DNA of 64,000 nucleotides from Nocardia ninae NBRC 108245. Lineage in GTDB: Bacteria; Actinomycetota; Actinomycetes; Mycobacteriales; Mycobacteriaceae. Shown piece by piece: positions 46,180 to 56,754 of this stretch (position 1 is the stretch's first letter; each line of letters opens with the position of its first letter). The notes beneath the pieces are model-generated. The model was not told where the DNA came from and made no database searches. It saw only the letters and a list, made by a program, of their open reading frames with translations. The stretch covers positions 62,001-126,000 of the forward strand of contig NZ_BJXA01000010.1 in NCBI RefSeq assembly GCF_007990755.1, in the 5' to 3' direction. A program made the translations under genes and the position numbers.

Positions 46180-46977
46180 TCAGCGCAGGGCGGCGCGGCT
46201 GCGCAGGCGGCCGAGCAGGACCAGCGCCAGCAGGGTGACCAGCACGAGCAGCGTGGTGCTCGCGGCCGCGTCGAACACCTCGCCGCGGTCGGTCTGGGCG
46301 AAGATGCCCACCGGCAGGGTCTTCCAGGTGGCCGGGTAGACCATGATGGTGGCGCCGAGCTCGCCCATGGACAGCGCGACGGCGAGTCCGGCTGCCGCGC
46401 CGAGCGCCGGGAGCAGCAGCGGCAGCGTGACCTGGCAGAGCACCCGGATCGGGCCGGCACCGAGGGATTCGGCGGCCTGGCGGTAGCCGGGGTCGATGCG
46501 GTCCAGCGCGGCGGCGACCGCGCTGAAGGCGTAGGCCAGCACGAGCACCGAATGTGCCAGGATGACAATCCATTTGGTGCCGCCGAGCAGCACCGGTCGC
46601 TCGTTGAACGCGATCAGCACTCCGAGGCCGATGGCCACCGACGGGACCGCGACCGGCAGATGGAACACCGCGTCGGTACAGCGCCGCCACCAGCTCGGTG
46701 CCTCGCGCGCCGCCAAGGCCGCCCAGGTGCCGAGGACCAGTGAGACGGCGCCGGCCAGCAGCGCGGTCTGCAAACTGACCGAGAGGCTGGCGGCCTGCTC
46801 GCCGGACAATGCGCGCTCGAAGTTGGCGAAGCCCAGGTCCGATGGCAGCGGGCCGGTCCAGTGCCCGGCGAGGGCGGCCGCGATCACGGTGGCGATCGGC
46901 GCGACGAACACCACGAACACCACGAGGGCGAACACGGCGAGCACCGCGACCCGGCCGCGTCTGGTCCACATCAGCAT
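46180..46977 (-). CDS. Phosphonate-type ABC transporter permease (PhnV-like), 265 aa
   Basis: BPD-type inner-membrane permease with six hydrophobic segments and the EAA loop AESLGAGPIRVLCQVTLPLLLPAL. It is the last gene of the phosphonate operon, with GAAGGAGAAC before its ATG, 4 bases after the preceding permease. With the other permease and the ATPase it forms the membrane channel for 2-aminoethylphosphonate or a related compound, by context. Confidence 0.9.
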   Translation of the reverse strand: MLMWTRRGRVAVLAVFALVVFVVFVAPIATVIAAALAGHWTGPLPSDLGFANFERALSGEQAASLSVSLQTALLAGAVSLVLGTWAALAAREAPSWWRRCTDAVFHLPVAVPSVAIGLGVLIAFNERPVLLGGTKWIVILAHSVLVLAYAFSAVAAALDRIDPGYRQAAESLGAGPIRVLCQVTLPLLLPALGAAAGLAVALSMGELGATIMVYPATWKTLPVGIFAQTDRGEVFDAAASTTLLVLVTLLALVLLGRLRSRAALR

Positions 46978-46981
46978 CGGT

Positions 46982-47875
46982 TCAGTTCTCCTTCTGGGCC
47001 GTGAACCGGGCGAAAACCAGCCGGTACCCGACGTACAGCGTGAGCGAGAGCAGCACCTGCACCGAGGCGAGCACCGCGGCGCCGGGCAGATCGAAGGTGA
47101 CGATGCCGCGGGTGTAGATCAGCGCGGGCAGCGTGATCACGCCCTTGGCTCCGGTGAAGAGCACGATGCCGAACTCGTTGAGCGTCAACAGCAATACCAG
47201 GCTGCCGCCCGCCGCGAGCGCGGGCCACGCCTCGGGCAGCACCACCTGGCGCAGCACCCGCCACGGTGATGCGCCGAGACTCGCCGCCACGTCGAGCTGT
47301 TCGCGCGGTAGTTGGGCGAACGCGGCGAGCAGCGGGCGCACGACGAAGGGCGTGAAGAAGGTGATCTCGGCCAGGATCACGCCGAGCGGGGTGCTCAGGA
47401 AGTTCAGTGCGGGTTCGTTTTTCCCGGTGATGTTCGTGATCAGCGCGTTGACCGCGCCTGCCGTGCCGTAGAGGAACGTGAAGGCCAGGGTGATGAGAAA
47501 CGACGGCAGCGTCAGCACGGTGTCGATGAGCCTGCCCACCACCTGCGACCCGGGAAACGGCACAAACGCCAGCACGATCGCCAGAAACGCGCCGAGTATC
47601 AGGCAGCCCGCGGTCGAGCTGACCGCGATGAACACCGTGCGCCACAACGCATTACGGAACGATTCGGAACCCAGCACCTGCGACCAGACCGAGGTGCCGC
47701 GCCCGGTCGGGGTCACCGTGGATTCGGCGAGGACCCGCACGATCGGGTACACGGCGATGAACAGCACCACCAGCAATGGGGGCAGGCTCCACAGCACCGG
47801 CTTCCAGTTACGTTGCCGCGGAGGTTTCGGCCGCTCAGGCGCGGCGACCGGCGCGAGTACCGCAGGCGTGCTCAT
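46982..47875 (-). CDS. Phosphonate-type ABC transporter permease (PhnU-like), 297 aa
   Basis: BPD-type permease with six hydrophobic segments and the EAA loop AASLGASPWRVLRQVVLPEAWPAL. ATG 47875 is chosen because the sequence before it belongs to the palindromic repeat. It is separated from the ATPase gene by 124 bases holding that 74-bp element. Confidence 0.9.
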   Translation of the reverse strand: MSTPAVLAPVAAPERPKPPRQRNWKPVLWSLPPLLVVLFIAVYPIVRVLAESTVTPTGRGTSVWSQVLGSESFRNALWRTVFIAVSSTAGCLILGAFLAIVLAFVPFPGSQVVGRLIDTVLTLPSFLITLAFTFLYGTAGAVNALITNITGKNEPALNFLSTPLGVILAEITFFTPFVVRPLLAAFAQLPREQLDVAASLGASPWRVLRQVVLPEAWPALAAGGSLVLLLTLNEFGIVLFTGAKGVITLPALIYTRGIVTFDLPGAAVLASVQVLLSLTLYVGYRLVFARFTAQKEN

Positions 47876-47910
47876 GCTCGGCCGCCTCTGCGCGGTTGTC
47901 TCGCCGACAT

Positions 47911-47984
47911 GCCGCACACTCCTTGATTTCCCGCACATGGAATCGCATGCGATTGCGTATGCGGGAAATCAGAAAGTGTGCGGC
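47911..47984. repeat. Intergenic palindromic element, copy 2 (74 bp)
   Basis: Near-perfect palindrome: GCCGCACACT...TGATTTCCCGCA...AATCGCATGCGATT...TGCGGGAAATCA...AGTGTGCGGC. It sits inside the phosphonate operon between the ATPase and the first permease, so its transcript would fold into a long hairpin. It is closely similar to the copy at 57628-57701 and of equal length. Confidence 0.85.
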
Positions 47985-47999
47985 AACTCTGACTGCGCC

Positions 48000-49190
48000 T
48001 CATCGCGGCACCTCGGTGCGGGTCGTGCGGCCGACCGCGCGGGGGATCAGCACGCCGGCGGGGTCGGGGAAGAGCACGCCGACGACCGAGCCTACGGCGG
48101 TGTCGACATGCCCGGAGACGTCGGCGGTGATCTGGTCGGCCACACCGTCGATCGCCAGGTGCAGGCGGGTGGACGCGCCGCGCCAGACGGCGGAGACCAC
48201 CGTGCCGCGCAGCGCGTCTCGTTCGGAGGTGGCGCCGATCCGCACGGTGTGCGGGCGTACGCACAGCAGGGCAGGGGAGTCGAGGGCCCAGTTCTCCTGT
48301 CCGACACCGGGTGCGGGTGCCTCGGCCCGCAGTGTCCGGTTGCCGACGGTGACCAGCGCCGACCCGCCCGACAGCCGGTTCACCGTGCAGGACAGCAGGT
48401 TCGCGCCGCCGAGGAAGGCCGCGGTGAAGTCGCTGGGTGGCCGCCGCCAGAGGTTCTCGGCGGTGTCGATATCCACCAGGTGGGCATCGCGCATGACCGC
48501 GATCCGGTCGGCGAGCGCGAGCGCCTCGGACTGGTCATGGGTCACGTACAGCATCGCCGTGTCCGGCAACGCCTTTCGCAGCTGCTGGAGCTCGCCGAGC
48601 ATGGACTGGCGCAGCTGCGCGTCGAGTGCGGCCAGCGGCTCGTCCAGCAGCAGCACCTTGGGCCGGATGGCCAGCGCCCTGGCGATAGCGACTCGCTGCT
48701 GCTGGCCGCCGGACAGTTCCCTGGGCAGGCGCTGGGCGTAGGCGCCCATGCCGACCATGGCCAGTGCTTCGGTAACTCGTGCGCCGATCTCGTTGCGCGG
48801 CACCCGATGCGACTTCAGTCCGAAAGCGACATTGTCGTGCACACTCATGTGCGGGAACAGCGCATACGACTGCACGACAACGCCGATCCCGCGTTTGGCG
48901 GGTGACAGGTCGGTGACGTCGCGCCCGGCCAGCCGGACCGCGCCCGAGGTCGGCCGGACGAATCCGGCCAGGGCCTTGAGCGCGGTCGACTTGCCGGAAC
49001 CGCTCGGTCCGAGCAGGGCGACGGTCTCGCCCGCGGCGACGCGCAGCGTGAAATCGGCCAGTGCGACAGTGGTTTTGCGGCCGCTGCGGTAGCTGACGCC
49101 GACCCGGTCGAACACGATCGCCGGTTCGGCAGCGGCCGGTCGGGACAGGGCGGTGGTGGATGACTTCGTGAGTGCGTCACCGGTGGACAT
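48000..49190 (-). CDS. Phosphonate-type ABC transporter ATPase (PhnT-like), 396 aa
   Basis: Walker A GPSGSGKST, Q-loop VVQSYALFPHMSV, signature LSGGQQQRVAIARAL, Walker B VLLLDEPLAAL, switch His in YVTHDQ, and a C-terminal TOBE-type regulatory domain (about 260-390). ATG 49190 was chosen over upstream frame positions because homology begins there. It energises the two downstream permeases. Confidence 0.93.
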   Translation of the reverse strand: MSTGDALTKSSTTALSRPAAAEPAIVFDRVGVSYRSGRKTTVALADFTLRVAAGETVALLGPSGSGKSTALKALAGFVRPTSGAVRLAGRDVTDLSPAKRGIGVVVQSYALFPHMSVHDNVAFGLKSHRVPRNEIGARVTEALAMVGMGAYAQRLPRELSGGQQQRVAIARALAIRPKVLLLDEPLAALDAQLRQSMLGELQQLRKALPDTAMLYVTHDQSEALALADRIAVMRDAHLVDIDTAENLWRRPPSDFTAAFLGGANLLSCTVNRLSGGSALVTVGNRTLRAEAPAPGVGQENWALDSPALLCVRPHTVRIGATSERDALRGTVVSAVWRGASTRLHLAIDGVADQITADVSGHVDTAVGSVVGVLFPDPAGVLIPRAVGRTTRTEVPR

Positions 49191-49218
49191 GGTCGACTCC
49201 TCTGGGGTTGACGGCGTT

Positions 49219-50289
49219 TCAGCTACCGGTGGCCTTCTGGTAGGCCGCCAGATCGCCGTCGAGGTCGGTGAGCACCGTGTTCCAGTCGACCGGCAGCAGT
49301 TCGACGCCCTGCAGCAGCGAGCTCGGCGACGGTCCCGATCCGGCCGGGGCATCACGCAGTTCCGCGCGGGCGGGCACCGCGAAAGCGTCCGAGCCCAGCG
49401 ACTTCTGCGCCTCGGCCGAGAGCAGGAACTCCATCAGTTTCTTGGCGTCGTCCTTATGCGGGGCGCCCTTGGCCAGACCCATCACGTAGGGGACGGCGAC
49501 GGTCGACTTCTTGCCGTCGGCGGCGGCCGGGAAGAAGACGCTGAACTTCGCGCCCTTCTCCTTGATGGTGGTCAGGTTCATCTGCACGTCACCGTTGGCG
49601 ATGCTCAGCTCACCCTTGTCGACCTTGGCCTGCAGCTTGCCCGTCGACGAGGACGGCCCGACATTGTTGGCCTGCAGCTTGTTCAGGTAGTCCAGCGCGC
49701 CCTGCTTACCGAGCAGCTTCTGCAACAGGATCAGCACGGCGGTGCCGTCACCGGCCTGGCCCGGCGTCGAATACTGCAGCTTGCCTTTGAAGTCCGGCTT
49801 CAGCAGGTCGTCCCAGGTGATCGCGGTGGTGTCGACCGAAGGGTTGGCGATGAAGCACAGGTAGTTGTTGGCCAGGGTGACGTATTTGCCCTCGGCATCC
49901 TTGTCGGCGGCCGGGACCGCGCTGGTGTCGACGCCGCTATCCTGAAGCAGGCCACTGGCTTTGGCCTTCTGGATGAACGGCGGCAGCGTGACGACCACGT
50001 CGGCCTGCGGGTTGGCCTGCTCCTTGTCGACCCGGTTGACCACCTCGCCGGAGCCCGCCTCGACCAGGTTGACCGCGATGCCGGTCTGCTGCTGGAACGC
50101 CGCGAACTGGGTCTGGTACCAGCTGCCGACACCGTCGGCGGAGTAGACCGTGACGGTCTTGCCGCTCGTGCTCTCGGTGCCGGTGCCACCACAGGCGGCG
50201 GTGGCGGCGACCGCAGTGGCGGTGGCGAAGAGCAACGCGGTGCGGGCGAGGGTGCGCGCCAGGCGAGCCGGCGGGTACGAAGTACGCAC
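49219..50289 (-). CDS. Phosphonate-type ABC transporter substrate-binding lipoprotein (PhnS-like), 356 aa
   Basis: Signal peptide with lipobox TAAC near residue 33, then a type 2 periplasmic-binding fold of the iron/2-aminoethylphosphonate group (TVYSADGVGSWYQTQFAAFQQQTGI, ADVVVTLPPFIQKAKASG). It lies 28 bases upstream of the ATPase gene. The phosphonate assignment relies on the downstream transporter and the adjacent phosphonatase-like gene. Confidence 0.9.
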   Translation of the reverse strand: MRTSYPPARLARTLARTALLFATATAVAATAACGGTGTESTSGKTVTVYSADGVGSWYQTQFAAFQQQTGIAVNLVEAGSGEVVNRVDKEQANPQADVVVTLPPFIQKAKASGLLQDSGVDTSAVPAADKDAEGKYVTLANNYLCFIANPSVDTTAITWDDLLKPDFKGKLQYSTPGQAGDGTAVLILLQKLLGKQGALDYLNKLQANNVGPSSSTGKLQAKVDKGELSIANGDVQMNLTTIKEKGAKFSVFFPAAADGKKSTVAVPYVMGLAKGAPHKDDAKKLMEFLLSAEAQKSLGSDAFAVPARAELRDAPAGSGPSPSSLLQGVELLPVDWNTVLTDLDGDLAAYQKATGS

Positions 50290-50360
50290 GATGACTACAA
50301 CTTTCGGTTCGTGAGGAGTGTCGGAGTCGAAGGGGTTTATCCGGCGGCTGCCGGAACGGT

Positions 50361-51050
50361 TCAGCGGTGCTCGGCGAGCACCAGTTCGGCGAACTCGACG
50401 ACCGACGGCACGACGTGGGTCGCGCCTGCCGCGCGCAGCTGCGCTTCGTTGTGGGCACCGGTGAGCGTGCCCGCGACGATGCGGGCGCCCGCGGCGAGGC
50501 CGGTGGCGATGTCGCTGGTCGTATCGCCCAGCACCGCAACACGATCCACGGCGTCGGCGTGCAAGCGGAGCAGCGCGGTGAGGACCATGTCGGGGTAGGG
50601 GCGGCCACGCCCGGCGTCCGAGGGGGCCAGGGTCAGGTCGGCGATGTCGGTCCAGCCCAGCGCGTTCAGCAGCCGGTCCTGGGTGGTCCGGCTGAATCCG
50701 GTGGTCAGTGCGACCCGCACACCGGCGCCACGCAACTTGTTGATCGCTTCGGCGGCACCAGGAATCGGCGTGATCTCGACTTCTTCGATCAGCGCATCGT
50801 AAGCGGACTCGAAGGCCCGGTTGGCTTCCTGCGCGCGCTCTTCGTCGCCGAGCAGGGCACGGAATACCGCGATCTTGGACTGGCCCATCGTGTCCAGCAC
50901 GTACTGCCGGGCCTCCTCGCGTTCCGGTCCGTCCGCCGCGATGCCCGCTGCGGTGGCGGCGGCCTCGAAGGCGCGCAGGACCAGCCCGCCGTCGGCGACG
51001 GTGGTGCCCGCCATGTCCAGGACGACTAGTTGAATGGTGTTGTCGGACAC
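50361..51050 (-). CDS. Phosphonatase-like HAD hydrolase (TIGR03351/PhnX-like), 229 aa
   Basis: HAD nucleophile D12 in LDMAGTT, with Ala at +2 as in phosphonoacetaldehyde hydrolase (DWAGT), and K59 in MGQSKIAVF, which aligns with the Schiff-base lysine motif MGxxK of phosphonatase. Later motifs TTGFS and VLGDTTSDI complete the fold. It should split phosphonoacetaldehyde into acetaldehyde and phosphate. GTG 51050 follows GAGGATTGCA and starts 8 bases after the oxidoreductase stop, so the two are coupled. Confidence 0.88.
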   Translation of the reverse strand: MSDNTIQLVVLDMAGTTVADGGLVLRAFEAAATAAGIAADGPEREEARQYVLDTMGQSKIAVFRALLGDEERAQEANRAFESAYDALIEEVEITPIPGAAEAINKLRGAGVRVALTTGFSRTTQDRLLNALGWTDIADLTLAPSDAGRGRPYPDMVLTALLRLHADAVDRVAVLGDTTSDIATGLAAGARIVAGTLTGAHNEAQLRAAGATHVVPSVVEFAELVLAEHR

Positions 51051-51058
51051 TGCAATCC

Positions 51059-52186
51059 TCACAAGTTCAGCAGGTCGGCGGTGTGCTCGCCGAGTGCGGG
51101 GCCGAGGGTCATGCCGCGGCCGCCGGGGCCGGTGATCACCCAGATGTGCGCGCCCGCCGCGGCGCGAGTGACGATCGCGGCCGGGTCGATGCTCTGGCTG
51201 TACACGCCGGCCCAGCGCCGAACCACCTGCGGCAGTTTGCGTCCGAGCAGTTCCTCGGTGACCGCGGTGAGGTGCTCGTAGGGCGCCTCGTCCACGTCGA
51301 AGGCGAACGGCTCGTCGTATTCGTGGGTGTCGCCGATGGTGAGCCCGCCGTGCAACCGCTGCACGCAGAGCAACTGCATCTTGTGCTCGGCGGCGGTGGC
51401 CGACTGGGACTGCTCTCGGTTCAGCGTGTCCACCTCGTCACCCGCGAAGCCCGGGTAGTAGCGGAAGCTGTCGCCGTCGGCGATGGCGGTGGTGAGCGGT
51501 TCGCCGAGCGGCGCGGTCTGCATCATCTGCAATCGGACTCGGCGCACCGGCAGATCCTCGACCAGCTCGCGGGTCAACCCGCTGTGTGCCGCGCCGGGGC
51601 AGACCAGCGCCAGATCGGCCTCGAAGCGGCGGCCCTGGTCGTCGAGCACGGTGGCGCCGGTGGCGGTGTCGAGGACCGACCTGGCCTCGGTGGCCGCGTG
51701 GAAGGTGTATCGGCCGGTGGCGGCCAGGTAGGCGCGCAGCGCGGGCAGCGCCTGGCGCGACTCGACCGCGGCGTCGGTCGAACAGTGCAGTCCGGCAAGG
51801 AATTTCCCGCGCAGTGCGGGGTTGACCGCGCGCACCCGGTCGGGATCGAGCAGCTCGAAGCCGCGGGTCTCGGCGGTCGGTCCGGCCGCGGCTTTCTCGG
51901 CGACGGCGAGTTCGGCGGGGGTACGCACCAGGGTGATCGATCCGGCGGGACGGAATCCGACGGCGGGGACCTTGCCGCCGATCTCCTCCCACAGTTCCCG
52001 CGAGCGCATCGTCAGCTCCAGTTCGGCGGCGGAGCGCCCGGAAACCCAGACCAGGCCGAAGTTGCGGACCGTGGCGCCGCGGGCCTCGGTCTCCCGCTCC
52101 AACTGCACCACTTCGTGACCGCGGCGGACGGCGGCCAAGGCGTGTGCGGTGCCGAGGATTCCACCTCCGATGATGACCAATCGCAT
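51059..52186 (-). CDS. FAD-dependent oxidoreductase, TIGR03364 type (phosphonate-linked), 375 aa
   Basis: DAO/glycine-oxidase fold with FAD loop IIGGGILGTAHALAA near the start and GPGGRGMTLGPALGE near the end. TIGR03364 proteins co-occur with phosphonatase-like genes and are thought to oxidise 2-aminoethylphosphonate or its N-methyl derivative to phosphonoacetaldehyde (I recall the name PbfC, not certain). ATG 52186 with GAGG 4 bases upstream is the best start; two more ATGs lie at 52195 and 52204, the last inside the operator. First gene of the operon. Confidence 0.88.
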   Translation of the reverse strand: MRLVIIGGGILGTAHALAAVRRGHEVVQLERETEARGATVRNFGLVWVSGRSAAELELTMRSRELWEEIGGKVPAVGFRPAGSITLVRTPAELAVAEKAAAGPTAETRGFELLDPDRVRAVNPALRGKFLAGLHCSTDAAVESRQALPALRAYLAATGRYTFHAATEARSVLDTATGATVLDDQGRRFEADLALVCPGAAHSGLTRELVEDLPVRRVRLQMMQTAPLGEPLTTAIADGDSFRYYPGFAGDEVDTLNREQSQSATAAEHKMQLLCVQRLHGGLTIGDTHEYDEPFAFDVDEAPYEHLTAVTEELLGRKLPQVVRRWAGVYSQSIDPAAIVTRAAAGAHIWVITGPGGRGMTLGPALGEHTADLLNL

Positions 52187-52203
52187 GGACCTCATGGTGC
52201 ACA

Positions 52204-52217
52204 TTGGTCTAGACCAA
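52204..52217. promoter_or_regulatory. PhnF/GntR-type operator 1
   Basis: TTGGTCTAGACCAA, a perfect 14-base palindrome containing TGGTCTAGACCA, next to the oxidoreductase start. It should control the phosphonate operon. Confidence 0.8.
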
Positions 52218-52284: not shown

Positions 52285-53055
52285 ATGGAAGCAACGGAGG
52301 TCGGTGCCGACGTGGCGCCCGGCGACACGCGTGGCGGGCGAGCCGAATTCACGCTGCCCGACCGGCTGCCGAAGTCGTACCGCGTGCGCACCGAACTCGA
52401 GACGATCCTGCGTGATCTGAACGAGGGCGATCCGGTTCCGTCCGAACGTGACCTGGCGGTCCGCTTCGAGGTCGCGCGGGAGACCGTTCGCCAAGCATTG
52501 CGAGATCTTTTGGTGGAAGGCCGGATTCGCAGGCAGGGCCGAGGAACCGTGGTCTCCCGGCCCAAAATGGTGCAGCCGCTGTCGCTTCGCTCCTACACCG
52601 AAGGCGCCATCAGCTACGGCCGCGTCCCCGGTCGCCTGCTCGTCAGCTGGGACGACGTCCCGGCCGACCCCGACACCGCCCGCGATCTCGCTGTGCCCGT
52701 GGGCACTTCGGTCATGCACCTGGAGCGCGTCCTGCTCGCCGACGGCGAACGCATCGGCCTGGAGAGCACCTTCCTGCCGCTGCACCGCTTCGCCGACCTG
52801 CGCACCACCTACGACCCGAGCACCTCGCTGTACGCGGCGGTGCGCGGGTCCGGCGTGATCTTCGGCCAGGCCACGGAACGCATCGAAACGGTCCTCGCCT
52901 CCCCCCGCGAGGCCGCACTCCTCGAATGCACTACGGCCCTACCGCTTTTGCTGCTGCACCGCCGTAGCCTCGACGCCGCAGGCGACCCGATCGAGCGCGT
53001 CCGCGGCCTCTACCGCGGCGACCGCATCGCCTTCGAGGCGCACCTCACCCAGTAG
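52285..53055 (+). CDS. GntR/HutC-family regulator with UTRA domain (PhnF-like), 256 aa
   Basis: Winged helix at about 30-95 (GDPVPSERDLAVRFEVARETVRQALRDLLVEGRIRRQGRGTVV) and a UTRA effector domain at about 110-250. It is divergent from the phosphonate operon, with two PhnF-type palindromes between them, so it probably represses both until a phosphonate or phosphate-related ligand binds. TAGGCT lies 7 bases before the ATG (leaderless). Its last 84 bases are duplicated at 55478-55562. Confidence 0.93.
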   Translation: MEATEVGADVAPGDTRGGRAEFTLPDRLPKSYRVRTELETILRDLNEGDPVPSERDLAVRFEVARETVRQALRDLLVEGRIRRQGRGTVVSRPKMVQPLSLRSYTEGAISYGRVPGRLLVSWDDVPADPDTARDLAVPVGTSVMHLERVLLADGERIGLESTFLPLHRFADLRTTYDPSTSLYAAVRGSGVIFGQATERIETVLASPREAALLECTTALPLLLLHRRSLDAAGDPIERVRGLYRGDRIAFEAHLTQ

Positions 53056-53059
53056 CTCA
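52975..53059 (+). repeat. 85-bp direct repeat, left copy (3' end of the GntR gene)
   Basis: Covers the last 26 codons and stop of the GntR gene plus CTCA. It matches 55478-55562 at 82 of 85 positions (differences at 52986, 53009 and 53025). Confidence 0.95.
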
Positions 53060-53074
53060 CGCCGATGGCCGCCG

Positions 53075-53938
53075 TCAGACGGGAAGCAATCGGCCCATCG
53101 AGTGGATTTCGTTCACATCGGCGCCGGTGATGAAGGACCAAGGAGCTGTGAAGAAACCGTTCTTGCCCCAGTTCGGGCCCCATGAATTCTCGACTGTCAC
53201 GCCTTTCGCGTCGTAGGCGACGATGGTGACCTCGTGGCCGCCGAGGATTTTCTCGCGGGCCGATGGGTTGTAGTTGTCATTGGTGCTGTCCAGGGCTTCG
53301 AAGCTTTCCCTGGCGTCGAAGCCGAAGGGGACCGGCAGGCCGGATGCGATCGCCTTCTTGATGTTGGTGACGATATCGCCCTTGGTGAGATCCTGTGCTC
53401 CGGACAGTTTGTAGTGGGTGGCGTTCGCGCGTTCCGCGGCGTCGGGCTGGGTCGTGTAGTCGAAATCGCCCTGCCAGTAGTCGGATTTGGTGTCGATGCC
53501 CTGCTGCTGTTCCAGCGGCAACGCGACTCCGGCGTAGGTGCCCTGATCGTTGCCTTGCGCGATCTGCGCGTAGATGAACATCGGGGCCATCGGATCGCCT
53601 GCGATCTGCTGCTCGTTCATCAGCACCCCGTACCCGGTATATCCGGTCGCCCAGGTGACGCACGATCCGACCGGCCCCTGATCGCCTGCGGGTAAAGCGT
53701 ACTGGCGCAGCGAATATGCGGCCGGTGGTGCACCGGCCGCGCCCAGTTGAACCGGCAGCGCCGAACCGACGGTGGTGTCTCGGCCGAGGCTGTCGTGCGC
53801 GGCCGCGCGGTCGAGTCCGAACGCGTGGTGCTTGATCTGCGGCGAGGGTGCGTCCGGGGCGGCGTGCGCGGTACCGGTCACCGCGAGGCTGGTTCCAAGG
53901 ATGGATACGAAAGCGGTGGACAAGCGCGAATAGTGCAA
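53075..53938 (-). CDS. Secreted papain-family (C1) cysteine protease, 287 aa
   Basis: TTG 53938 is chosen because AGGAGG lies 4 bases upstream on the minus strand and the signal peptide (FVSILGTSLAVTGTAHA) then begins at the N-terminus. The C1 motifs are DQGPVGSCVTWA (catalytic Cys, with Val-Thr-Trp in place of the usual Trp-Ala-Phe), GGHEVTIVAYD (His) and ENSWGPNWGKNGFF (Asn). It should cut proteins or peptides outside the cell. It lies inside the segment flanked by 85-bp direct repeats and is divergent from the other protease. Confidence 0.88.
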   Translation of the reverse strand: MHYSRLSTAFVSILGTSLAVTGTAHAAPDAPSPQIKHHAFGLDRAAAHDSLGRDTTVGSALPVQLGAAGAPPAAYSLRQYALPAGDQGPVGSCVTWATGYTGYGVLMNEQQIAGDPMAPMFIYAQIAQGNDQGTYAGVALPLEQQQGIDTKSDYWQGDFDYTTQPDAAERANATHYKLSGAQDLTKGDIVTNIKKAIASGLPVPFGFDARESFEALDSTNDNYNPSAREKILGGHEVTIVAYDAKGVTVENSWGPNWGKNGFFTAPWSFITGADVNEIHSMGRLLPV

Positions 53939-54194
53939 GGTTCCTCCTGCTGAGCCCCATGATCCATCACTTCCGGATGGAATGATCGGTGAACTGAACA
54001 GGGAGTGTTCCACGGCATTTCGGCGACGACTAGATAAAAGTCATCCTGATTCATTTAAGTCGCGGTTAACGGCGGTGTCGCACAAGTAAATTCACCCAAG
54101 TCGCCCACTTGCACTGTGATTCGATACGGTGGTATTGCGGCCGAGGGCGCGGATATGTACCGTGCGATGGTATTTCCGCTCGGAAGGATGAGAT

Positions 54195-54845
54195 GTGACG
54201 TCGAAATGGAAGCTGTGCTGCCTGGTCTCGATGTTCCTCGCCTTCGCACTGCACGGCTCCGCCGTCGCCGAGCCGGGACCCGCCGAGTGGGATGCCGCCG
54301 GGCATTCCTACGGTTTGGTGGTGACGCCGAACCTGCCTCGGGTTCCGGAACCTCGCGCCGCCGCCTTCGGTGCGCGAACCCTGCCGTATCTCCAGCAGAC
54401 CCAGATCGCGGATCAGTGGTGCTGGGCCGCCGACGGCTCGTCGATAGCCACGTATCTGCACCGGCCGATCAGCCAGAATCAGTACTGCGCACTGGTACAC
54501 GGCGTCAGCACCGAGGGCGCCTGCCCAGATGAGGAGGCGTCGCTCGAGCAGATCGCGTCCGCTTTCCGAGGGATCGGTTTCGCCGCGGCCGTCGGTGCGC
54601 CGTTGTCGATGGCCAAGGTCATCGATGAGATCTCGGCCGATCGGCCGATCCTCACCGGCATCGCGTGGACGGCAGGCGGCGGGCACGCGCAGGTGATCTA
54701 CGGCTTCGACACCGATGCGGGCACCGTCACCTACGGGGATCCCTGGCCCACCTCGCGGCGCAGCGTCACACAGTCGCTCGACTCCTACACCCGGAATTCG
54801 GACTGGACGTGGTTCGGCGAGGATTACGGCATCGCACTCCGATGA
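54195..54845 (+). CDS. Secreted AvrRpt2-like papain-fold cysteine protease, 216 aa
   Basis: GTG 54195 follows GGAAGGA. The signal peptide ends near HGSAVAEPG. The domain starts at LPYLQQTQIADQWCWAADGSS, with the catalytic Cys in QWCWAA, and GGGHAQVIYGFD supplies His, followed by VTYGDPWP (Asp/Asn position). This pattern belongs to the AvrRpt2 (C70) / C39-like papain-fold group. Two further Cys (QYCAL and GACPD) may form a disulfide. It is co-translated with the lipoprotein gene (ATGA overlap at 54842). Confidence 0.85.
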   Translation: MTSKWKLCCLVSMFLAFALHGSAVAEPGPAEWDAAGHSYGLVVTPNLPRVPEPRAAAFGARTLPYLQQTQIADQWCWAADGSSIATYLHRPISQNQYCALVHGVSTEGACPDEEASLEQIASAFRGIGFAAAVGAPLSMAKVIDEISADRPILTGIAWTAGGGHAQVIYGFDTDAGTVTYGDPWPTSRRSVTQSLDSYTRNSDWTWFGEDYGIALR

Positions 54846-55429
54846 GTGGATCGGTCCTGCGCATCGCGATCGGGCTCTTAGTTGTTGGTCTGGGCCTGTC
54901 GGGGTGTGCGGATCGCGGTGCACCCGCGACGGTGTGGGAGAGCGAGCCGGACGGCAGTGCCATCGACAGCGCGATCGACACTCCGGCGGCGCAGCGTCTC
55001 GTCGGATCGTTCCTTCGATCGTCGGGTGCGTCGAATGATGTTGCGGCCATGGCACTTCAGCGAGTCGGCGCCCCGGTTATGGTGTATGCGACCTACCCGT
55101 CGTCCGCTGACGATCCCGGACACTCCCTCGAGCGCGCCGGGATCGAGTCCTACATCGCGGTGCCGGTTCGGGTGGCCGGGCGCAATGCCGCCGACACGTT
55201 GCAGTTGGAACCGTTGCCACCGTATCTGCCACGGGCGATGGCAACGGGGGTAGAGGAGACGAGCCGGCCACGTGCCGCCGGTGCGCGACTGCTGCTCGAT
55301 TACCCGACCCATACCTGGTTCGGCTGGACGCGAACCCAAGTTGCCGTGATCTCCTCGGAAAAGACCCCCGCGTTGGCAGGCAAAGAACTCAACGCCGAGG
55401 CCTTCTATGCCTGGCTCCGAACCCGCTGA
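54842..55429 (+). CDS. Lipoprotein of unknown function coupled to the AvrRpt2-like protease
   Basis: 195 residues. The ATG overlaps the protease stop. Lipobox LSGC near residue 21. The mature part has a short helical region, then a domain with several Pro-rich turns and a final KTPALAGKELNAEAFYAWL. No family recognised. Coupling suggests it is a membrane-anchored partner, inhibitor or substrate of the protease. Confidence 0.8.
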   Translation: MSGSVLRIAIGLLVVGLGLSGCADRGAPATVWESEPDGSAIDSAIDTPAAQRLVGSFLRSSGASNDVAAMALQRVGAPVMVYATYPSSADDPGHSLERAGIESYIAVPVRVAGRNAADTLQLEPLPPYLPRAMATGVEETSRPRAAGARLLLDYPTHTWFGWTRTQVAVISSEKTPALAGKELNAEAFYAWLRTR

Positions 55430-55477
55430 CCCGCCGAGTCGTTCGCGCGCCGCGCAACCAACTGTTGGATTTCCAGT

Positions 55478-55562
55478 GCCGCAGGCGATCCGATCGAGCG
55501 CGTCCGCGGCCGCTACCGCGGCGACCGGATCGCCTTCGAGGCGCACCTCACCCAGTAGCTCA
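55478..55562 (+). repeat. 85-bp direct repeat, right copy (detached GntR gene tail)
   Basis: It repeats the end of the GntR coding sequence in frame to its TAG (55556-55558), followed by C and the TCA that is the stop of the convergent monooxygenase gene. It has no GntR sequence upstream, so it marks the right edge of the inserted segment 53060-55477. Confidence 0.95.
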
Positions 55563-56570
55563 GCGCACCTGCGGGGCTACCTTCTCGCCCAGCAATTCGA
55601 TGTTGTGCAGGACCTTTTCGTGCGGGAGGGTGCCGACGCTGGTGTGCAGCATGAAGCGGTCGAGGCCGAGGGTGTCGCGGATGTCGGCGACCTTTTCGGC
55701 GACGTAGTCGGGGGTGCCGACGAACAGCGAACCCTCCTTGGAGCGCAGGGCCTCGAATTGCGGGCGGGTCATGGGGCCCCAGCCGCGTTCGCGGCCGATG
55801 ACGCTCATGGCGAGTGCGTAGGGCTCGTAGAAGTCGGCGACGGCTTGTTCGTCGGTGTCGGCGATATAGCCGTGGGCGTGCACCGCCACCGGCTGCTTCT
55901 CGTGGCCGCCTTCGGCGAGGGCGCGGTGGTACAGCTCGACCAGCGGCTTGAACCGGGCGGGCTGACCACCGATGATCGCGATGGCCAACGGAAGTCCGAG
56001 CAGTCCGGCGCGGACCACCGACTCGGGGCTGCCGCCGACCGCGATCCACACCGGCAGCGGCCGGTTGTCGGTGCGCGGGTAGACGATGGCATCACGCAGC
56101 GGTGCACGGAACTTGCCGGACCAGGTGACCGGCTCGTCCTCGCGCAGGTGCAGCAGCAGCGCCAGCTTCTCCTCGAAGAGCTCGTCGTAGTCGGACAGGT
56201 TGTAGCCGAACAGCGGAAAGCTTTCCGTGAAGGACCCGCGCCCGGCCATCAGCTCGGCGCGCCCTTTGGACAGTCCGTCCAGCGTCGCGAAATCCTGGTA
56301 CACGCGTACCGGATCATCGGAGCTCAGTACGGTGACCGCGCTGGTCAGCTGGATCTTCTCGGTGCGCGCCGCGATGGCGGCCAGCACCAGCGCGGGGGAG
56401 GAGGCGGCGAAATCCTTGCGGTGGTGTTCGCCGACGCCGTAGACGTCGAGTCCGGCCCGCTCGGCGGCGACGGCCTCCTCGACCACCTCACGCAACCGCT
56501 CGCCCGCGGTAGGTGCGGGGCGGTCGCCGACGGGGTACAGCTCGGCGAAGGTCGTGAGTCCCAATTCCAC
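55560..56570 (-). CDS. Luciferase-like (LLM) flavin-dependent monooxygenase, 336 aa
   Basis: Bacterial-luciferase-type barrel: [14 protein letters not shown] at the start, [42 protein letters not shown] and [37 protein letters not shown] 56570 follows GAGGAAAGAGG. It uses FMNH2 and oxygen on an unknown substrate. Its stop codon lies in the right 85-bp repeat, one base from the detached GntR stop. Confidence 0.92.
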
Positions 56571-56754
56571 GGTCGAGCCTCTTTCCTCAGTAGTGTCGAT
56601 GTCAACCAATACCGTAAACGGACCATGGTCCGCAGGTATTCCGCGTGCCCTTCGGCGCCGATCAGAGTCGGCTGTGCCGTGCGTCGGCCGGGCGCTGCGC
56701 CGCCGTGTCGGTCCGGCGCTGCCGCAGCGCGCGCCATCCGATTACTCTGTTCGC

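Follow-up and report, generated by a model that had tools for sequence, protein, structure and literature searches.

We found that a three-gene cassette in the window analyzed here, a stretch of 64,000 nucleotides (nt) from Nocardia ninae NBRC 108245, lies at a place where the genomes of the genus repeatedly hold different cargo. The cassette, which encodes a secreted C1 papain-like protease, a secreted C70 papain-like protease and a putative lipoprotein, is situated between a gene for a GntR/UTRA regulator and a convergent gene for a luciferase-like monooxygenase (LLM), and the 3' end of the GntR gene is present on both of its sides. The comparison with other Nocardia genomes supported the view that the insert is a real arrival at an insertion hotspot. 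As to the detached GntR end on the right, we lean towards the reading that it would be the scar of a later templated recombination or repair event, which followed the insertion into the hotspot.

The repeat search of the window returned the flanking sequences as a two-copy direct repeat of 85 nt with 96% identity, and blastn of one flank against the other gave 96.47% over 85 nt (82/85) with an E value of 2e-36, far above chance (coordinates in Table 1). Both searches bore out the pair as it had been described in an earlier note made from the letters of the window. The left copy is the true end of the GntR gene, whereas the right one is a detached tail: its TAG (55556-55558) is followed by a single C and then by TCA (55560-55562), the minus-strand stop codon of the LLM gene, so the two stops are one base apart, as the earlier note had also stated. 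That the right copy might be what remains of a longer GntR paralogue in decay was considered and rejected, because the protein match is limited to residues 231-256, the preceding bases differ and the homology stops at 81 nt. No inverted pair of at least 20 nt was placed at the edges of the cassette among the 25 longest of the 35 such pairs in the window.

To look at the same junction elsewhere, GntR and LLM were searched in 148 Nocardia genomes. GntR was matched in 110 of them at E ≤ 1e-30 (paralogues included) and LLM in 95 at E ≤ 1e-80. Forty-nine convergent GntR–LLM junctions were read, that of the window included; the non-convergent pairs and the pairs split between contigs were left uncounted, the loci L082-L091 stand outside the count, and two of the 49 junctions (G134 and G100) rest on a partial GntR match. 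The two stops are only 1-12 nt apart in 11 junctions, which are empty sites with a single gene end. The distance is 53-98 nt in six further junctions, 235 nt in one, and 688-14,323 nt, with varied cargo, in the remaining 31. A gap of about 30 kb in G076, estimated from the match coordinates, is outside the 49. The abutting stops in 11/49 junctions mean that GntR and LLM are adjacent in relatives, as the earlier note had expected, and therefore that the segment did enter. The empty junction of N. xishanensis (G082) reads TAG-C-TCA and has the same spacing as the right copy of the window.

The GntR–LLM gap of Nocardia is a hotspot of insertion at which integrases are hardly seen. The cargo was scanned at 82 of its 115 predicted open reading frames (ORFs), those left unscanned being the ORFs of the cassette, parts of LLM, most ORFs of repeat arrays and some short ones, and 104 Pfam families were obtained. 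No integrase or transposase was present among the best 25 of these 104 families, and no separate transposase search was made; the integrase family of G126 belongs to the other 79. A search with PF00589 in 16 genomes gave, among the matches listed, a sole match inside a GntR–LLM junction, that of G126, and none inside the junction of the window. In G126, the tyrosine integrase gene is placed in the junction between 24-nt direct repeats, 92% alike and 1.8 kb apart (L069:3848-5705). Other junctions have their own peculiarities: in the gap of G085, a 249-nt unit is repeated 11.4 times with 82% matches (L056:3026-5859), and the ORF spacing suggests a similar repeat array in G143 (L071). In G134 (L079) and G100 (L080), only the C-terminal part of GntR was matched beside the junction, with an additional, weaker N-terminal GntR piece in G100.

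The cassette was found at the same junction in two relatives, which differ in the number of tails. In N. suismassiliense (G079, L032), the cassette is accompanied by both tails. In N. colli (G121, L033), it lies at the same site, in DNA 87% identical, but with one tail only; the 267 nt between its lipoprotein and LLM stops (L033:3753-4019) could not be aligned with the tail of the window. Relatives that share the insert are thus not uniformly one-tailed.

The one-tailed N. colli stands against the reading in which the gene end was duplicated by the insertion itself. An ancestral junction of the form tail-C-TCA would have been entered through an integrase acting in trans, or by a circle that carried the tail and integrated in a single crossover, and 85 nt (the tail, the C and the LLM stop) would have been left on both sides; N. 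colli would then have lost its right copy, and conversion would have kept the copies alike in the other two species. We consider such a history possible, though rather doubtful. In its favor, when one copy and the insert are subtracted, TAG-C-TCA is left, which is the spacing of the natural empty site of N. xishanensis, the CTCA behind the left copy would be the remnant of the LLM stop, and the shorter left spacer of N. colli can be derived from that of the window by an 18-nt loss between two TCA. It is opposed, besides N. colli, by the Pfam search of the three cassette proteins, in which no integrase or transposase was seen, in agreement with the earlier note.

The age of the copies also argues against duplication at entry. 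Per 81 nt, the left and right copies differ at three positions in the window and at six in N. suismassiliense, the left copies of the two species differ from each other at four and the right copies at six, whereas the tail of N. colli differs from all four copies at 9-11. With so small a left–right divergence compared with that to N. colli, the duplication seems to postdate the insertion, unless gene conversion has made the copies alike again. In a hand estimate, which added half of the divergence of the GntR coding sequence to half of that at its third positions, a duplication dating from the N. colli split would be expected to show about 16 left–right differences, and one dating from the separation of the two tailed species about seven; the copies are too alike for the age that duplication at entry requires. 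No site inside the duplicated stretch groups both left copies with N. colli against both right copies. Site -31 separates both left copies from both right copies, as would be expected if the duplication came before N. ninae and N. suismassiliense parted. A tree built from the 81-nt tails was set aside, since it had too little signal (supports of 21-43 on the relevant nodes).

The third line of evidence came from the cassette at other sites. Of 150 genomes, 16 had a match to the lipoprotein (E ≤ 1e-5), and a different set of 16 had a match to the C1 protease (E ≤ 1e-30). Among 25 places with C1, 23 were compared as cassette loci; all three genes were present in 15 of them, C1 and C70 in three and C1 alone in five. 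According to the similarity of the flanking DNA, the loci fall into about eleven places, with C1 and C70 together at eight. A long direct repeat flanks the cassette in two of them, the window and N. suismassiliense, and is missing from the other 21 of the 23 loci, N. colli included. At the other sites of the cassette, a long flanking repeat was seen in 0/20 loci (up to 2.5 kb on the left and 3 kb on the right, best five matches), which counts against duplication at entry as well. The cassette therefore occupies different places, and long flanking repeats are not part of the unit. The suggestion that it might be met elsewhere between other repeats was right about the cassette and wrong about the long repeats.

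The DNA on the LLM side of the cassette was informative too. G111, which has no cassette, has a 95-nt spacer that resembles the LLM-side end of the N. colli spacer (0/1000 shuffles reached the score). The shared sequence turned out to be a dispersed repeat, with 66 matches in G121, 16 in G111 and three each in G000 and G079 (both strands); it is palindrome-like, about 60-80 nt long and present at many places in G121 and G111. Plain orthology of the two spacers was therefore abandoned in spite of the strong similarity, which was kept as supporting evidence only. In N. colli and G111, the repeat has the same orientation, and in both the match reaches to within 12 nt of the LLM stop. The 48-nt spacer of the window is weakly like the left half of the repeat (6/1000 shuffles against N. 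colli and 26/1000 against G111). In a ten-gene tree, N. ninae grouped with N. suismassiliense and N. colli with G093 (N. tenerifensis; support 99), and G111 was outside these four (88). The approximately unbiased test rejected a clade that joined N. colli and G093 to G111 and excluded the window (p-AU 0.003), and it did not reject G111 as a sister of the window pair (p-AU 0.11); both surviving trees place the window between N. colli and G111. The likeness of the repeat in N. colli and G111, together with the rejected clade, suggests that the ancestor of the window probably had the dispersed repeat and later lost it where the tail now lies. Altogether, the proposal of the earlier note that the segment entered between once-abutting genes with duplication of the gene end held for the entry, as the empty sites demonstrate. 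The duplication at entry did not fare as well in view of the one-tailed N. colli, the young copies, the 20 other loci and the LLM-side spacer of N. colli and G111 that is absent from the window.

From these comparisons, we infer an order of events and a templated mechanism. The C1–C70–lipoprotein unit would have been placed in the GntR–LLM gap in the ancestor that N. ninae and N. suismassiliense share with N. colli. On the stem of N. ninae and N. suismassiliense, the last 81 nt of GntR with CTCA would later have been pasted against the LLM stop, and the same repair or recombination event would have removed the remainder of the old spacer. In its simplest form, the event may have been a short templated copy from the GntR end that was initiated in the spacer, at a GC or close to one, and ended at CTCA, common to the GntR end and the LLM boundary, as a 4-nt switch-back point. 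The left joint of the right tail does share GC with the spacer, the GntR stop of the window is followed by CTCA, and the LLM boundary of N. colli reads CACTCAG. The left copy of N. suismassiliense is followed by CCCC, so the switch-point argument rests on the window. Tandem duplication of the tail with the cassette, followed by deletion of the second cassette, would yield the same product and was put aside as it needs two steps.

Several observations weigh against such a late copy. The CTCA after the stop of the left copy is directly explained by duplication at insertion, site -19 is common to the copies within genomes and not between genomes, and a young appearance of the copies would also result from gene conversion between them. 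Since the marker repeat is dispersed, its presence in N. colli and G111 could be two independent events, and the likeness of the 48-nt spacer to it is weak in the window and weaker still in N. suismassiliense (70/1000 shuffles against G111). Finally, only three genomes among those searched carry the cassette at this junction.

The right tail might also have come from outside, by one-sided replacement with DNA of a strain with an empty junction (homology-facilitated illegitimate recombination). With a homologous joint in LLM and an illegitimate joint behind the lipoprotein gene, the tail would be the GntR end of the donor. Its 1-nt spacing to LLM is indeed that of an empty site, the last two 150-nt sections of LLM are nearer to G093 and G076 than to N. 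colli, and a detached LLM end in G042 scores nearer to the LLM ends of some other species than to its own (38 vs. 28). However, the right tail is nearest to the left tail of the window itself (3/81), which would require a very closely related donor. The LLM gene does not reject the species tree (p-AU 0.38 for the whole gene and 0.75 for the 3' half), and no foreign donor was found for it. The LLM evidence neither requires nor excludes the replacement, which is the main mechanistic rival of the templated copy and which we hold to be unlikely.

Two independent arrivals of the cassette, one in the N. colli line and another, with gene-end duplication, in the two-tailed line, would likewise explain the difference in tails. 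The junction is an insertion hotspot, copies of the cassette are found at several other places, and G093, the sister of N. colli in the tree, holds other cargo here. Nevertheless, the DNA identity between the window and N. colli (91.7% for C1, 87.9% for C70 and 79.1% for the lipoprotein) brackets that of the flanks (about 88% for GntR and LLM), and the order and orientation of the cassette are equal in both, which makes separate arrivals very improbable.

The window and N. suismassiliense are not the only carriers of a detached gene end at the hotspot. In the 32 junctions whose stops are 150 nt or more apart, 150-nt gene-end segments were compared with the gap alongside control segments from inside the same genes. 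At E ≤ 1e-6, matches in the gap were obtained for 4/64 gene-end segments vs. 0/251 controls, and at E ≤ 1e-4 for four gene-end segments vs. two controls; weaker gene-end matches (e.g., L080, 2e-4) were left uncounted. They represent three separate cases: the GntR end in the window and N. suismassiliense, the GntR end in G134 (41 nt, 85%) and the LLM end in G042 (46-48 nt, 81%). The Fisher test gave 0.0016 for four matches and 0.008 for three at E ≤ 1e-6, and 0.017 at E ≤ 1e-4, values that are indicative only, as the cut-off was picked after the matches had been seen. The detached ends vary in length (85, 46-48 and 41 nt) and in the gene they derive from, unlike one att core, which is a further point against insertion with gene-end duplication. 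It could still be imagined that gene 3' ends are repeatedly duplicated here as different cargo arrives, with the GntR ends of the window and G134 and the LLM end of G042 as instances. We regard this as improbable; were it so, cargo would have an integrase-free way in, one beginning within the final codons of a gene and leaving that gene restored.

The features of the locus are collected in Table 1. "PhnF-like" is a fair name for the regulator, although it scored 104.4 with the NCBIfam PhnF model vs. a cut-off of 156.8.

Table 1. Genes, repeat copies and spacer at the GntR–LLM junction of the window (positions counted from its first letter)
Feature	Position	Strand	Remarks
GntR/UTRA regulator (PhnF-like), left flank	52285..53055	+	complete; ORF translation, Pfam, NCBIfam
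Left repeat copy	52975..53059	+	last 81 nt of the GntR/UTRA gene and CTCA; true 3' end
Secreted C1 papain-like protease (Peptidase_C1)	53075..53947	-	start not fixed; open frame reaches 54013
Secreted C70 papain-like protease (PF12385)	54195..54845	+	above the Pfam cut-off
Putative lipoprotein	54842..55429	+	lipobox-like LSGC; start overlaps the C70 stop (ATGA)
48-nt spacer preceding the right tail	55430..55477		
Right repeat copy	55478..55562	+	detached GntR 3' end (81 nt), C and LLM stop codon
Luciferase-like monooxygenase (LLM), right flank	55560..56609	-	over the TIGR03858 cut-off

The content of the insert, two secreted papain-fold proteases and a putative lipoprotein, was the one the earlier note had read from the translations. 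The Pfam match of the C1 protein spans the papain domain, and Cys, His and Asn/Asp motifs, which we take to be those of C1 and C70 proteases, are visible in the translations. The lipoprotein matched no Pfam or NCBIfam family, and none of the three cassette proteins matched the defense-system models. A search for carriage on plasmids and phages, made with C1 alone, gave only matches below 60% identity (seven plasmid records and one phage record). The lipoprotein profile matched 7 of 298 genomes, that of the window included, and led to six loci (L208-L213) from another family of the order, perhaps Pseudonocardiaceae; C70 and the lipoprotein adjoin in all six, as in the Nocardia cassettes. Their side-by-side position suggests that the lipoprotein probably works together with the C70 protease, possibly as its inhibitor, anchor or chaperone. 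At one Nocardia lipoprotein locus (L104 of G012), C70 was not seen within the 3.6 kb examined. The lipoprotein is fast-evolving beside its C70 partner.

To the left of GntR, the window contains an apparent cluster for aminoethylphosphonate uptake and breakdown (46180-52204), with ABC transporter genes, a binding protein, a phosphonatase-like gene and an FAD oxidoreductase, all named from their translations.

Integrative elements use the 3' ends of tRNA and protein genes as attB sites. The locus resembles such elements in having a gene end on both sides of the insert and empty sites in relatives, but it differs from them in an insert without an integrase, in a relative that has the insert but one end and in the lack of such repeats at the other sites of the cassette. 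Literature searches brought up analogues of the hotspot and of the scar, and none of the titles listed concerns this locus, on which a publication may still exist.

Oliveira et al. (2017; PMC5635113) describe hotspots of horizontal gene transfer without mobile elements and propose recombination at the flanking core genes. The GntR–LLM junction shares with these hotspots the conserved flanks, variable cargo, empty spots in many genomes and, as far as tested, few integrases. It differs in being seen across the species of a genus, whereas theirs lie within one species; excess recombination at the flanks was not evident here, the LLM gene being compatible with the species tree. In the Vibrio type VI secretion system arrays (PMC5361080), orphan gene ends and immunity genes arise from successive module replacement, for which homology-facilitated illegitimate recombination has been proposed. 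Detached 3' gene parts beside new cargo at a hotspot are common to these arrays and to the Nocardia junction, but here the ends come from the flanking genes and not from displaced cargo, and the copy in the window is nearest to the gene of its own genome. PMC3240628 is cited beside these two works.

When an insert lies between repeats, these are commonly read as the trace of its entry. Here, a close relative that carries the same insert with one repeat suggests otherwise, and it calls for caution when islands are read from single genomes. With 49 junctions and three separate cases of detached ends, the locus offers a compact comparative case for the rebuilding of integrase-poor hotspots.

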